Of a stretch of 64,000 nt of DNA, positions 10,610 through 49,207 are shown piece after piece (the stretch's first letter is position 1; each line of letters starts with the position of its first letter). The translations under genes and the position numbers were made by a program. Source of the DNA: an uncultured Cohaesibacter sp. (GTDB lineage Bacteria > Pseudomonadota > Alphaproteobacteria > Rhizobiales > Cohaesibacteraceae). The stretch is from positions 1,515,331-1,579,330 of the forward strand of contig NZ_OY762905.1 of NCBI RefSeq assembly GCF_963666525.1, written 5' to 3'. The notes beneath the pieces were generated by a model that was not told the origin of the DNA, ran no database searches, and saw only the letters and a program-made list of their open reading frames with translations.

Positions 10610-10710
10610 GAAAGCTACCCTCACAGATAGTTGCCTCTCGTTGGGGAGAGGTGTCCCACAGACCGGATTACTCCCCTTTATGAGAGGCGTCAAACGGATT
10701 TTCTGTGTTG
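10610..10710 (-). promoter_or_regulatory. Structured serC leader RNA (serC-motif-like)
   Basis: Three nested complementary segments are visible in the 5' UTR. CACAGA/TCTGTG pairs 10702-10707 with 10622-10627. GCCTCTC/GAGAGGC pairs 10682-10688 with 10633-10639. GGGGAG/CTCCCC pairs 10671-10676 with 10643-10648. The outer helix ends directly before the GAGGGT ribosome site. A competing local hairpin CCTCTC-CCCAAC-GAGAGG reuses the same strand, so two folds exclude one another. A conserved serC RNA motif upstream of serC is known from alphaproteobacteria; I infer this is a member but could not compare it with the consensus. Confidence 0.6.
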
Positions 10711-10944: not shown

Positions 10945-11706
10945 CTAGTTCAGATCGTAGCGCAGACCGACGCGGAACTCATGTGCATAGAGATCCGAGA
11001 ACTTGACCGGATTCGTCTGGGCAGGATCCGACGAGTGGCCGGTTTCGGCGCGACCGAATGACATCAGGCGATAGTTCGCATCCAGTTTCATTCTGTCGCT
11101 GATATCGAAGGCGGCACCAGCCATCACGTTCCATGCAAAATTGAACTTGGCGTGGTTGCCGAAGATCTGGGTGGTCGGATCAGAGCTGTTGTAATCGGTT
11201 GCTCTGAGATAGGCCACACCGGCACCGGCGCCGACATAAGGCGTGATGGAATTCCAGTGACCGAAGTCATAGTAGCCGTTCAACATCAGCGTCCAGGCAC
11301 TGAACTTGACCGTTTCGGTGGTGGCAGCAAGGGCATTACAGCCGACGTTGGTGCAAATCGCGTCGCCGGTGTATTTTGCCTTGCCATGATAATCGAGGGT
11401 TATGTCACCGCGAAGCTTGTCGGTGAAATAATAACCGGCACCAATCCCGGCCAACCAGCCGTTATTGATCTTTTCATTATAGAACTTGGGATCACTCCCC
11501 GCAGAAGGAAGCCAGGATCCATTGCCACCAGCATAGGCAGCAACACCAAGGTCTCCACGCAGATACCATCCTGAACCAATTTCAACGACGGCTTCGGGTT
11601 CGTATTCAATGACCGGCGGCGCAGGCAAATCCGCTGCAAAAGCAACAGAAGCTGACATAGCGGCCCCGAACACACTCAAAAACAGATTTTTTTTGAGGCT
11701 GCTCAT
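10945..11706 (-). CDS. Outer membrane beta-barrel protein, Omp25/Omp31-type
   Basis: This is a 253-residue outer membrane protein of the small eight-stranded barrel group common in Hyphomicrobiales. The first 24 or so residues are a signal peptide (LFLSVFGAAMSASVAFA), cleaved before ADLPAPP, a typical mature N-terminus for the family. Alternating hydrophobic strands such as WYLRGDLGVAAYAG, AGIGAGYYFTDKLRGDITLDY and FRVGLRYDLN follow. The start at 11706 has a GAGGAAAAGAG site; the in-frame ATG at 11754 is not needed. It has its own terminator and a long AT-rich upstream region, consistent with strong independent expression. Confidence 0.88.
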   Translation of the reverse strand: MSSLKKNLFLSVFGAAMSASVAFAADLPAPPVIEYEPEAVVEIGSGWYLRGDLGVAAYAGGNGSWLPSAGSDPKFYNEKINNGWLAGIGAGYYFTDKLRGDITLDYHGKAKYTGDAICTNVGCNALAATTETVKFSAWTLMLNGYYDFGHWNSITPYVGAGAGVAYLRATDYNSSDPTTQIFGNHAKFNFAWNVMAGAAFDISDRMKLDANYRLMSFGRAETGHSSDPAQTNPVKFSDLYAHEFRVGLRYDLN

Positions 11707-12045
11707 CTCTTTTCCTCTCGACACAAAGGTTTGAACGTGAATTGGAGATTTCACTCAAGAGAAAAGATCACAGAATTTTCTTAATACTGGATTAACTACG
11801 ATTATTAAACATAAATACATCAAGAAATGGTGATGAGAGTAATTTGGGGTAGATAAATTTATGCAAATTGCAAATTTTATTCTTAATAAAGTATTACCGC
11901 ACCGAAAGCCACCTGAACATCCCTCCCCTGAGAGCCGCGACGAAAGGTGCACTATACATCCATTTTGGCCGCAATCCCTTGCCAACGCCGGGCGCAAACC
12001 GCTATAGCCTGTGCAGCACCCTCCTTTACGGATTTCCGGGCAATC
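11707..12045. other. AT-rich divergent promoter region, porin / EamA permease
   Basis: The first half (11750-11900) is far richer in A and T than its surroundings and should carry the porin promoter on the minus strand. ATGCAAATTGCAAATTT near 11861 is a short near-symmetrical sequence that could be a protein site. A long minus-strand open frame at 11755-12249 has no recognisable domain and overlaps the permease, so I leave it out. Confidence 0.45.
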
Positions 12046-24265: not shown

Positions 24266-24585
24266 GAAACTTAGTCCTTTCTAGCGCACGGCCCGGACTG
24301 CAGCGGGAGGACTGCGAGCGGACCAATGCATAAAACTGGGGCCTTGAGCATGTTCGGCAGGAAAATCTGCTGCCGTCCTTGCCGTGGACCATTTCAAACA
24401 GACACAACCAGCCGGCCCCCGGATTGACTCATTGCGACAGCATTTGTCAGCAGATTTTGTCAAAACTAGGGTCGGCGAAGACGTGCAAACACAAAGAACG
24501 CACTCTTTGACAAGGCACGATTATGGTTAATGAAAGTTTAAGTAAAGTGAACAGAGCCGAAAGGAAAAGCCCTGTTGCAACGATT
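24266..24585. other. Intergenic region between ybgC and tolQ
   Basis: About 320 bases show no gene. In many proteobacteria ybgC and tolQ are adjacent; here the gap suggests tolQRAB has its own promoter. A minus-strand open frame at 24281-24463 is Cys/Ala-rich with no domain and is left out. Confidence 0.45.
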
Positions 24586-30464: not shown

Positions 30465-30600
30465 CCAAACAGAAAGCCGCAACGACCGTCGATGCTTTTC
30501 AGATCCTGGGACACCTGTAATACAGGGGGGTGCCAGTTGAAACGGACCACGGTCCAGATCAGCGCCAGCTCCCATTCGGATCTTTAAGGCCCCGAGGAAA
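30430..30600 (-). ncRNA. ssrS: Candidate 6S RNA
   Basis: The 270-base gap between zapA and fau carries no gene, ends in an intrinsic terminator, and lies where 6S RNA is commonly found in proteobacteria, including alphaproteobacteria. 6S RNA binds the housekeeping RNA polymerase in stationary phase. On the minus strand the stretch begins TCCTCGGGGCCTTAAAG and contains perfect small hairpins (GGACC-GT-GGTCC; CCTGTA-T-TACAGG) and a longer-range pairing AGATCC/GGATCT that could close a central bulge. The 5' end is not defined. I infer 6S from synteny and general form; covariance-model confirmation is lacking. Confidence 0.45.
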
Positions 30601-30680
30601 AGTTGCATCTAACGCGAAGTGCAGCAAGCTTTCCATATATAAAGTATCCGCAATGAGATTTCCAGCCCGATTCTCGGAGA

Positions 30681-46811: not shown

Positions 46812-47360
46812 TCAGTCGGCCGCTCTTGCTGCAAAGGCGTTGGCAATCATGCCGATCTGATCGCCAACCGGGTTGGCCTGCAGCGGAACGTCCCGACTTT
46901 CATCGGTAGCCCGCTTGGAATAGATCACTTCATCGAGGTGACGAATGCGTTTCTGCATATGCATGGACTGTTCAATGAGGTCACGCAGGCGAACCGGCAG
47001 TTCGTCCCACCCCGGGCTCTCCTTGGAGGAAGAAAGCCCGTGCAGACGCACCTTGTTCTTTTCCTGCCCGGCCTGTTCCAGCGTCATTTCGCCTTCATTG
47101 ACAGCACGTTGCAGCAGCAGCCACGAAGCCATCTGCATCAACCGTGTTGTGAGGCGCATGGATTCGGTCGCATAGGCAAGCGAGGCGACCCGTGGCAGAC
47201 TTTTCGCCTCGGCGCGCCCTTCCCCGTCAAGATAGTCGGCAGCTTCTTCAACCAGCGCCATACCATCCCTGAACAGGGTCTTGAAACTATCGGAATCCGC
47301 AAGTTTCGCCCCAAAGGATACCGGGGTGGAACTGTGGGTATGCTTTCGCTTGTCGTTCAT
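46812..47360 (-). CDS. rcdA: RcdA-family protease adaptor (DUF1465)
   Basis: This is a 182-residue helical protein of DUF1465, the family of Caulobacter RcdA, which works with CpdR and PopA to deliver CtrA and other substrates to ClpXP at the G1-S transition. The three-helix core is visible (TLFRDGMALVEEAADYL, SLAYATESMRLTTRLMQMASWLL, DLIEQSMHMQKRIRHLDEVIY) with a long flexible N-terminus. A strong GGAGG precedes the ATG at 47360. Cell-cycle function is inferred from the family. The intergenic region upstream holds CtrA-type boxes and a small-RNA candidate. Confidence 0.88.
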   Translation of the reverse strand: MNDKRKHTHSSTPVSFGAKLADSDSFKTLFRDGMALVEEAADYLDGEGRAEAKSLPRVASLAYATESMRLTTRLMQMASWLLLQRAVNEGEMTLEQAGQEKNKVRLHGLSSSKESPGWDELPVRLRDLIEQSMHMQKRIRHLDEVIYSKRATDESRDVPLQANPVGDQIGMIANAFAARAAD

Positions 47361-47842
47361 GTGACCTCCAAATGCCTGGCCATGCCTACCATGTCCGATG
47401 TGCCAAATTCAAACAGACATTGCACCAAATTTTCATTTCGGAGAATAACAAGCACAAACCATGCCATTGACGAAATGCAATATTGACAGATGCTCCTGCA
47501 GCTTGAAAGCTGCCAGATTGGTCAGGTTAATGCGAGACATTATCAGAAATGGAGGCCAAGAGCCAACGTTTCCGGGCCAGCTTGCCAAAACATGTGAAGC
47601 AAATATGTTGCGGTGAGCGAACCAGCGCCCCAGACCAATACATCAGAGCCCCATTTTGATACAAATTGCCGCCGGCTTCGGCAAAGGAATTTCCGCTCCG
47701 AAACGGCAGGAACCATCCAGTTGGTTAACAATTTCCTAACAGCGGGGTACATCTGACGCGACAGACACCATCAGAGGTTCGACCGTCGAGCATCGTAAGA
47801 ACGGGGGGCTATCCGGCCTCGTTTACTCCTGTCTCCTCGTGC
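47361..47842. other. Upstream region of rcdA
   Basis: About 480 bases with no convincing gene; a 69-codon minus-strand frame at 47543-47752 has no domain or ribosome site. One near-consensus CtrA-type box, TTAA-CAATTTC-CTAA, lies at 47725-47739. The rcdA promoter is expected on the minus strand here. Confidence 0.4.
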
Positions 47843-47941
47843 AAAAAAAGAGCCGCACCAGCGGCTCTCAGGAGTTAACAGGGAGGCGTCAAACAGAGTG
47901 ACAGGAGTCACTCGAAATCCAAAAGTTTGGATAGTCTAATT
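47843..47941 (-). ncRNA. Candidate trans-acting small RNA, about 100 nt
   Basis: No protein gene lies on the minus strand between here and 48178, yet a strong intrinsic terminator stands at 47843-47868 (AGAGCCGC/GCGGCTCT plus T7). Upstream on the minus strand are a perfect hairpin GAGTGAC-TCCT-GTCACTC (47896-47913), a small hairpin CCAAA-CT-TTTGG, and single-stranded GCCTCCC and ACTCC. A promoter ending at 47948 predicts a start near 47941. Exposed CUCC motifs that can pair with ribosome-binding sites are the hallmark of several alphaproteobacterial sRNA families (for example AbcR-like and CcsR-like), so a translational repressor is likely. No family assignment was possible. Confidence 0.6.
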
Positions 47942-47947
47942 AACGCA

Positions 47948-47976
47948 AATAATAATTAATTTTTCATTAAAGACAA
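47948..47976 (-). promoter_or_regulatory. Promoter of the sRNA candidate with perfect CtrA-type box
   Basis: On the minus strand TTGTCT (47976-47971), a 17-base spacer and ATTATT (47953-47948) make a good sigma-70 promoter. The spacer contains a perfect TTAA-N7-TTAA CtrA-type site at 47956-47970. A site between the -35 and -10 boxes would suit repression by CtrA. The area is very AT-rich, so chance occurrence must be kept in mind. The remaining bases to 48178 form the AT-rich upstream region of the quinone oxidoreductase gene and show no gene. Confidence 0.45.
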
Positions 47977-48178: not shown

Positions 48179-49207
48179 ATGTCAGAAAACTCCAGCCAGA
48201 CAGGTATGATCATGCAGATAGCAACAGAAATGAGAGCAATCGTGGCCCCCGAGCCGGGAGGACCGGAAAAGCTTCAAATCATCACGCGCCCTGTTCCCAC
48301 ACCTTCGGACGATGAAGTGCTGATCAAGGTCAAGGCCGCAGGCGTCAACCGCCCGGATTGCATCCAGCGCGCTGGCAACTACCCGCCGCCTCCAGGCGCA
48401 TCCGACATTCTGGGACTGGAAGTCGCCGGCGAGATCGTAAAGGTTGGCGCCAACGTCAAGACCTGGAAAGTCGGAGACAAGGCAACTGCTCTGGTGTCCG
48501 GCGGCGGCTATGCCGAATATTGCGTCGCCCATGCCGGCAGTGTTCTCGAGATCCCCAAGAACTGGAGCTTCACGGAAGCAGCCAGCGTACCGGAAAACAT
48601 CTTCACCGTCTGGCACAATGTCTTCCAGCGCGGCAAGTTGCGCCCCGAGGAAACCCTGCTGGTCCATGGCGGCTCGTCAGGCATCGGCCTCACGGCCGTG
48701 CAGCTGGGCAAGGCGTTCGGAGCCAAGGTTGCGGTTACCGCCGGCAGCGAGGAAAAGTGCAAGGCCTGCCTCGATCTGGGGGCGGATCTGGCCATCAATT
48801 ACAAGACACAGGACTTCGTTACCGAGATCAAGAACTGGACCAACAAGAAGGGCGTCAATGTCATTCTGGACATGGTTGGTGGCGACTATATTTCCAAGAA
48901 TTATGTCATTGCCGCGGAAGACGGCCGCATTGTCCAGATTGCCTTCCTGAATGGCGGCGTTGCCGAAGTCGATTTCCGCCGACTGATGATGAAACGCCTG
49001 ACCCACACCGGTTCGACCCTGCGCGCCCGCTCCCATGAGGTGAAGGCAGAAATCGCTGCGGATCTGAGAAAGGAAGTCTGGCAGCTTCTCTCCTGCGGCC
49101 TGATCAAACCCCAAGTCTACAAGGTCTTTCCGTTCGAGGAAGCCGCAAAGGCACACGAGCTGATGGAAAGCTCGAGCCATATCGGCAAGATCATGCTGGA
49201 ACTGTGA
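48179..49207 (+). CDS. NAD(P)H:quinone oxidoreductase, zeta-crystallin type
   Basis: This is a medium-chain dehydrogenase/reductase of 342 residues without the zinc ligands of alcohol dehydrogenases, as in the PIG3/QOR group that reduces quinones with NADPH. The GroES-like N-terminal domain contains GVNRPDCIQRAGNYPPPPGA; the Rossmann motif is HGGSSGIGLTAVQLGKAFGA. The start is uncertain: 48179, 48209 and 48230 (MRAIVAPEPGG, the usual family start) are all in frame and none has a clear ribosome site. A hairpin overlaps the stop codon. Confidence 0.9.
   Translation: MSENSSQTGMIMQIATEMRAIVAPEPGGPEKLQIITRPVPTPSDDEVLIKVKAAGVNRPDCIQRAGNYPPPPGASDILGLEVAGEIVKVGANVKTWKVGDKATALVSGGGYAEYCVAHAGSVLEIPKNWSFTEAASVPENIFTVWHNVFQRGKLRPEETLLVHGGSSGIGLTAVQLGKAFGAKVAVTAGSEEKCKACLDLGADLAINYKTQDFVTEIKNWTNKKGVNVILDMVGGDYISKNYVIAAEDGRIVQIAFLNGGVAEVDFRRLMMKRLTHTGSTLRARSHEVKAEIAADLRKEVWQLLSCGLIKPQVYKVFPFEEAAKAHELMESSSHIGKIMLEL

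Follow-up and report, generated by a model that had tools for sequence, protein, structure and literature searches.

The window, by which we mean the whole 64,000-nucleotide stretch of DNA analysed here, carries on its minus strand a gene of the known small RNA family RF02356 (BjrC1505). We put at roughly 0.75 the probability that this gene specifies a CtrA-activated, trans-acting small RNA with a CCUCCC anti-Shine-Dalgarno seed. The features on which this reading is built are collected in Table 1.

Table 1. Features of the small RNA locus and its neighbours in the window
Feature	Positions	Strand	Basis
CtrA-type box TTAATGAAAAATTAA (perfect TTAA-N7-TTAA), presumed overlap with the -35 region	47956..47970	(-)	letters and comparison
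Predicted -10 hexamer GTTAAT (family TATNAY at box positions 27-32)	47939..47944	(-)	promoter logo
Small RNA, RF02356 (BjrC1505), about 91 nt	47843..47933	(-)	Rfam match; 5' end predicted
5' hairpin ATCCAA-ACTT-TTGGAT	47917..47932	(-)	fold and covariation
Second hairpin GAGTGAC-TCCT-GTCACTC	47896..47913	(-)	fold and covariation
Conserved seed TTTGACGCCTCCCTGTTAAC, including CCTCCC (47886-47881), anti-Shine-Dalgarno	47874..47893	(-)	family alignment
Intrinsic terminator, stem 47869-47848, seven T to 47843	47843..47869	(-)	letters, fold, covariation
Second CtrA-type site TTAG-N7-TTAA (7/8), between terminator and rcdA	47725..47739	(-)	counterparts in several genus members
rcdA (DUF1465, PF07323), adaptor for CtrA proteolysis; conserved downstream neighbour	46812..47360	(-)	synteny
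qor-like zinc-type dehydrogenase; conserved divergent neighbour	48209..49207	(+)	synteny

The small RNA gene and its family

Membership in the family is directly observed. The Rfam match extends from 47977 to 47843 and is complete over model positions 1-140, with 92.9 bits against a gathering cut-off of 50. The initial annotation had proposed an undescribed small RNA: the small RNA gene is borne out by structure and covariation, but the match to RF02356 is full length, and 'undescribed' is therefore wrong. The search with covariance models that it recommended returned RF02356 as the sole family at this site, with no match to any other up to E = 1. The sequence elements it had claimed on the minus strand are all present at their places. 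A short open reading frame in the ORF list (47771-47911, minus strand, 46 aa, GTG start) overlaps the RNA. Elsewhere in the window, Rfam matches mark a serC leader (10610-10661), 6S RNA (30470-30630) and a tRNA (1550-1621, minus).

A search with the Rfam model finds the family in 37 of 41 genomes, in single copy in 36 of those 37. The BjrC RNAs were reportedly defined by Madhugiri and others in 2012. Within the open-licence literature we found no function for BjrC1505, its only mention being a Herbaspirillum table of Rfam predictions, and no mention of RF02356 by accession; the main texts of that literature, as far as they are available, state neither CtrA control nor a link to rcdA for this family.

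The structure is equally well supported. The RNA from 47943 to 47843 folds at -35.5 kcal/mol (z = -6.29), a value matched by 0 of 200 shuffles. Across 75 distinct family members, both partners have changed in 13 of the 20 base pairs; the alignment cells with both sides changed number 69 against a shuffled mean of 13.7, which 0 of 500 shuffles equalled. The named 20-pair structure has 94.0% standard pairs in these members, and on each of five measures all 500 shuffles fall short of the observed value. The terminator helix is paired in 93.1% of cells of the same alignment, and, among the matches listed, all 161 loci whose sequence extends far enough have a run of at least four T after it. The most constant part of the RNA is the core TTTGACGCCTCCCTGTT, between the second hairpin and the terminator. 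This invariance is partly by construction, because most loci were selected by their core letters; loci found with the Rfam model also carry the core, with small changes.

A CtrA-type box in the promoter

The promoter was compared across 150 loci, 30 obtained with the Rfam model (the window included) and at least 120 through exact matches to a 22-base segment of the RNA. Five loci with a short upstream flank were left out, which leaves 145. Since the Rfam model includes the promoter, its 30 loci (L001-L030) are circular for a test of the box, and the remainder (L031-L150) were counted apart. All counts in this and the next paragraph refer to the matches listed. At one fixed place, the box has 8/8 bases in 63 of the 145 loci, 7/8 in 78, 6/8 in 3 and 5/8 in 1, as against 8/8 in 0 and 7/8 in 2 for a control region of equal length. 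Where loci were found by RNA letters alone, the perfect TTAA-N7-TTAA that the initial annotation had pointed out at 47956-47970 is kept with at least 7/8 bases in 111 of 115 (42 with all eight, 69 with seven), and the control in 1 of 115 (0 at 8/8, 1 at 7/8). Removal of similar promoters leaves the box in 86 of 90 loci and the control in 2 of 90, Rfam-found loci included.

The family logo reads TT(A/T)AC-N5-(A/G)TTAAGCTTTC followed by TATNAY at positions 27-32. A match to TATAAT of at least 4/6 occurs in 111 of 144 loci, as opposed to 19 of 144 in the control, and the best -10 match lies at position 27 or 28 in 109 of 144. The box and the -10 are thus conserved by direct count, and their arrangement, a TTAA-N7-TTAA site in the promoter with a suitably spaced -10, is that of a CtrA-activated promoter. 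From it we infer activation by CtrA and, with the box at 47970-47956 and the -10 at 47944-47939, a start site near 47933. The 5' end of the RNA was derived from this family logo together with the 100-nt length listed for SmelC671 of Sinorhizobium meliloti in the available part of its source (PMC2873474). The promoter proposed initially was a different one, TTGTCT (47976-47971) paired with ATTATT (47953-47948). Both sets of letters are there, but relatives conserve the box, CTTTC in place of ATTATT, and TATNAY at 27-32, and the six bases before the box, where TTGTCT would be a conserved -35, carry 0.05-0.47 bits each over 144 aligned loci. The pair is probably wrong, because the TATNAY -10 follows the box.

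If the start site is right, promoter DNA makes up the 5' third of the Rfam model. The first 45 or so positions of RF02356, which are drawn as paired, match the promoter with its CtrA-type box and in this differ from the window's RNA, which otherwise shares the model's core and terminator over a full-length covariance match. Several of the pairs in this promoter-like part are broken in the window, and the family boundary looks too long.

Hairpins, box and terminator are kept in relatives, where the initial annotation had advised looking for them, and the comparative evidence reaches far beyond the genus. It was extended with R1, a covariance model built from the RNA with the promoter excluded; of its 75 training sequences, 14 came from genomes in an earlier search set. 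Of 385 genomes sampled across the class, 72 have R1 matches. Left out before counting were L243, L244 and L252, in which the core is not recognisable, and, from the counts by score, L192, from the same order. At 35 bits or more, a box of at least 7/8 is present in 31 of 36 loci (controls, 1/36 upstream and 3/35 downstream); between 30.5 and 35 bits, in 15 of 19 (0/19 and 0/19); and below 30.5 bits, in 7 of 15. Because some of these loci were Rfam-found and helped to train R1, genomes without an earlier Rfam hit were counted apart. These are mostly labelled as the same class, not the same order, and include some from outside the earlier Rfam search set; they have the box in 22 of 29 loci at 30.5 bits or more (controls, 0/29 and 1/29) and in 5 of 11 below. 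The CtrA-type reading of the box thus appears better supported than the sequence of the window alone could show.

The many box-less R1 matches at low scores speak against CtrA activation of the RNA. Several of them (L238, L239, L245, L246, L250, L253) were rejected as family members, since they resemble other C-rich RNAs. As an observation in its own right, the weak matches L238, L239, L245, L257 and L246, L250, L253, L256 have no box of 7/8 or better; the cores of the box-less weak matches are ACGTCTCCCAGACGTGAAGCCTCCCTG-like or GGGCGTTTCCTCCCT-like, and perhaps represent one or two other C-rich small RNA families. In two genomes, two or three model matches are clustered or sit at the ends of contigs (G418, C6:79514-79805; G250, C10:36-327 and C15:29-120). 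Four genomes of one family (f60) have qor, a box (7/8) and the RNA; their rcdA match, about 1 kb further on, is weak.

The rcdA neighbourhood

The link to rcdA that the initial annotation had noted in the window proves to be a lasting one. Synteny was examined in the 163 loci with the exact core, 16 of L001-L179 being left out for lack of it, and the following counts are among the matches listed. In 145 of 163, rcdA follows the RNA on the same strand, with 172-614 bases (median 263) between seed and rcdA match. The other 18 comprise seven that end within 300 bases of the seed, at a contig or record end, L068, and ten with no rcdA match despite at least 791 bases downstream. Upstream and divergent, qor is present in 112 of 163; it is absent in 48, 18 of which have less than 1 kb of upstream sequence. 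In L068, the RNA has the opposite orientation relative to rcdA and qor, as if inverted in place. We propose that the RNA adjoins rcdA because RNA and adaptor belong to one CtrA-linked locus.

It is possible, if unlikely, that the box and promoter belong to rcdA itself, the RNA being the 5' leader of rcdA, the terminator an attenuator and the short RNA a by-product. The shared strand and the short distance to rcdA would suit such an arrangement, as would the fact that most loci have no second box: among the matches listed, a site of at least 7/8 between terminator and rcdA occurs in 36 of 145. The same figure can be read the other way, as shuffles give about 4.5%, and the rcdA-proximal boxes of S. 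meliloti and Shinella are perfect. A leader would also have to account for the conserved trans-type seed, for a terminator of the RNA's own with its well-paired helix and constant T run, and for L068, whose RNA is oriented away from rcdA. In Caulobacter, rcdA is known to be under CtrA control, according to the accessible parts of PMC4287350 and PMC4433202; Rfam and the S. meliloti surveys, in what is available of them, list a discrete small RNA.

S. meliloti offers the closest comparison with published data. In strain Ak57, the interval from a DUF1192 gene to rcdA contains a perfect box TTAACCGCAAATTAA, then an RNA that is homologous but diverged, with a terminator; the second perfect box lies after the terminator and before rcdA. 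The homologue scores 31.5 bits with R1 and 27.2 bits, below the cut-off, with Rfam; it keeps a CTCCCTGTTTTACCTTGAGAGCCGC core and the terminator, and of the family core only CTCCCTGTT. 6S RNA lies about 13 kb from rcdA in this strain, and the distance to it differs by about 1.3 kb between S. meliloti strains. We take SMc03989 to be the DUF1465 gene, from a gene count starting at the genes tkt and gap; no confirmation was found in the open-licence literature. As far as the sources extend, Sm84/SmelC671 is placed in the region SMc03988>/SMc03989> on the plus strand, with apparently about 80 nt detected and 100 nt listed (PMC2573895, PMC2873474), and counting 100 nt from box position 38 in Ak57 leads to the end of the T run, in agreement with the length that PMC2873474 gives in its available part. 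By gene order, strand and length, the Ak57 homologue is very probably Sm84/SmelC671; with the gene count unconfirmed and the 6S distance different between strains, the grade stops short of proof. Likeness to the window's RNA extends to the place before rcdA, the strand, the size of about 80-100 nt, the core and the terminator; the hairpins are diverged, and the identity is by position and length only.

In S. meliloti, a CtrA ChIP-seq signal is reported at the rcdA promoter region with rcdA unchanged on CtrA depletion (PMC4433202), and a CtrA motif is predicted upstream of an rcdA start site (PMC3616915); this motif may be the second, rcdA-proximal box. Three agrobacterial lineages have multiple rcdA start sites with possible CtrA sites upstream (PMC10469942), and in Hyphomonas neptunium CtrA is reported not to regulate rcdA (PMC7200025). 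These data fit a small RNA promoter that has been read as part of the rcdA promoter. The RNA could explain CtrA binding without an rcdA response in S. meliloti; the rcdA-proximal box could be an alternative source of that binding.

Possible targets and a proposed place in the CtrA circuit

A second reading, also improbable in our judgement, is that the seed covers the start region of rcdA, CtrA thereby delaying its own adaptor. Complementarity of the seed to rcdA starts is raised among the matches listed, with a mean of 17.3 at 144 loci compared with 14.3 at 255 other ORFs, and scores of at least 22 in 16.7% compared with 3.5%. Many Bradyrhizobium-like loci have GAGGCGTTAA before the rcdA start, which pairs with UUGACGCCUC. 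The top scores come largely from these related loci, the match in the window's genus is an ordinary Shine-Dalgarno sequence, and the mean duplex energy of -18.6 falls inside the shuffled-seed range of -19.8 to -15.6 (average -17.6). As a target, rcdA is thus weak and clade-bound, raised mainly in Bradyrhizobium-like loci.

A different regulator may use the same TTAA-N7-TTAA site. Very improbable is an AT-rich accident beside an ordinary sigma-70 promoter without CtrA, a possibility that the initial annotation had allowed for and that the very AT-rich upstream bases of the window invite: perfect sites number three in the 64 kb against 0.09 expected, the box keeps its place in GC-richer relatives with the -10 mostly at 27-28, control stretches fail, and these counts refute a chance origin of the box. 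The other two perfect sites lie at 11781-11795, immediately upstream of an ORF of outer-membrane type on the minus strand (10945-11754), and at 24527-24541, near ORFs that resemble ybgC, tolQ and tolR in translation.

For the preferred reading, a CtrA-activated RNA acting in trans, ctrA and gcrA were considered as targets. A simple run score at -30..+10, rather than a full interaction model, gave means of 13.8 for 27 ctrA loci (without three weaker matches, L406-L408) and 15.8 for 30 gcrA loci (30 of 33 matches), close to the 14.3 of other ORFs, and a score of at least 22 in 0 of 57. Over a wider -150..+15 region, one ctrA (L379, 27) and one gcrA (L373, 22) reach that score. Neither gene is supported as a target, their complementarity being near that of other ORFs. 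In the window's own genome, ACAGGGAGG sites at starts number 10, with 0 for the reversed pattern; nine of the downstream proteins were searched and include two transport components and two FGGY sugar kinases. By spacer letters only, such sites do not look shared across the genus. Over about 11 kb of the window's own genome (G000:C1:680235-691653), ACAGGGAGG returns at intervals of mostly 540 bases, forming a large tandem repeat that is perhaps one giant repetitive gene.

Other C-rich small RNAs with exposed anti-Shine-Dalgarno motifs are alpha-r14/NfeR1, CcsR and AbcR; unlike RF02356, none of them has an Rfam match at the site up to E = 1. Caulobacter CcnA (CCNA_R0094), the sole small RNA treated in depth as CtrA-activated in the available portions of the open-licence literature, is similar by description in its presumed activation by CtrA, C-rich loop and cell-cycle circuit (PMC8959179). 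It differs in its location in the replication origin and its length of 182 nt (PMC4287350), and targets ctrA and gcrA, pairing that is not supported here. EcpR1 of S. meliloti, in what is accessible of PMC4414408, is likewise a conserved Rhizobiales small RNA with a cell-cycle link; its locus (divK-pleD), loop sequence and stringent-response regulon are different. Its published loop UCCGCCGCAUCU is absent from the sRNA strand of the 3.1-kb locus around the RNA, and loop and locus together rule out identity with EcpR1.

In the mechanism that we propose, phosphorylated CtrA would bind the box overlapping the -35 region and activate transcription from the TATNAY-type -10, as conservation and position suggest. 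The transcript of about 91 nt would stop at its own intrinsic terminator. It would contain two hairpins and, where pairing is weak, the CCUCCC seed. While CtrA is active, the seed would probably act in trans by blocking Shine-Dalgarno sequences of target mRNAs, and the RNA would be made where the factor that ends CtrA activity is also encoded.

The RNA family itself was already known; what appears new, on comparative grounds, is CtrA-type control and the constant tie to rcdA. A functionally uncharacterised family thereby gains a seed and a constant partner in the genome, along with a likely regulator and a likely site of transcription start, and a published puzzle gains a proposed answer, namely that CtrA is found upstream of S. 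meliloti rcdA and yet rcdA does not respond to CtrA depletion. CtrA circuits have been studied mainly as protein networks. The chances seem to us even that a CtrA-activated anti-Shine-Dalgarno RNA next to rcdA is an ancient component of the alphaproteobacterial cell-cycle circuit throughout the class, and that in many species the CtrA-bound 'rcdA promoter' serves mainly to produce this RNA and not rcdA. The conserved box and the rcdA neighbourhood suggest that the bacterial cell-cycle circuit has an RNA arm which has been overlooked.
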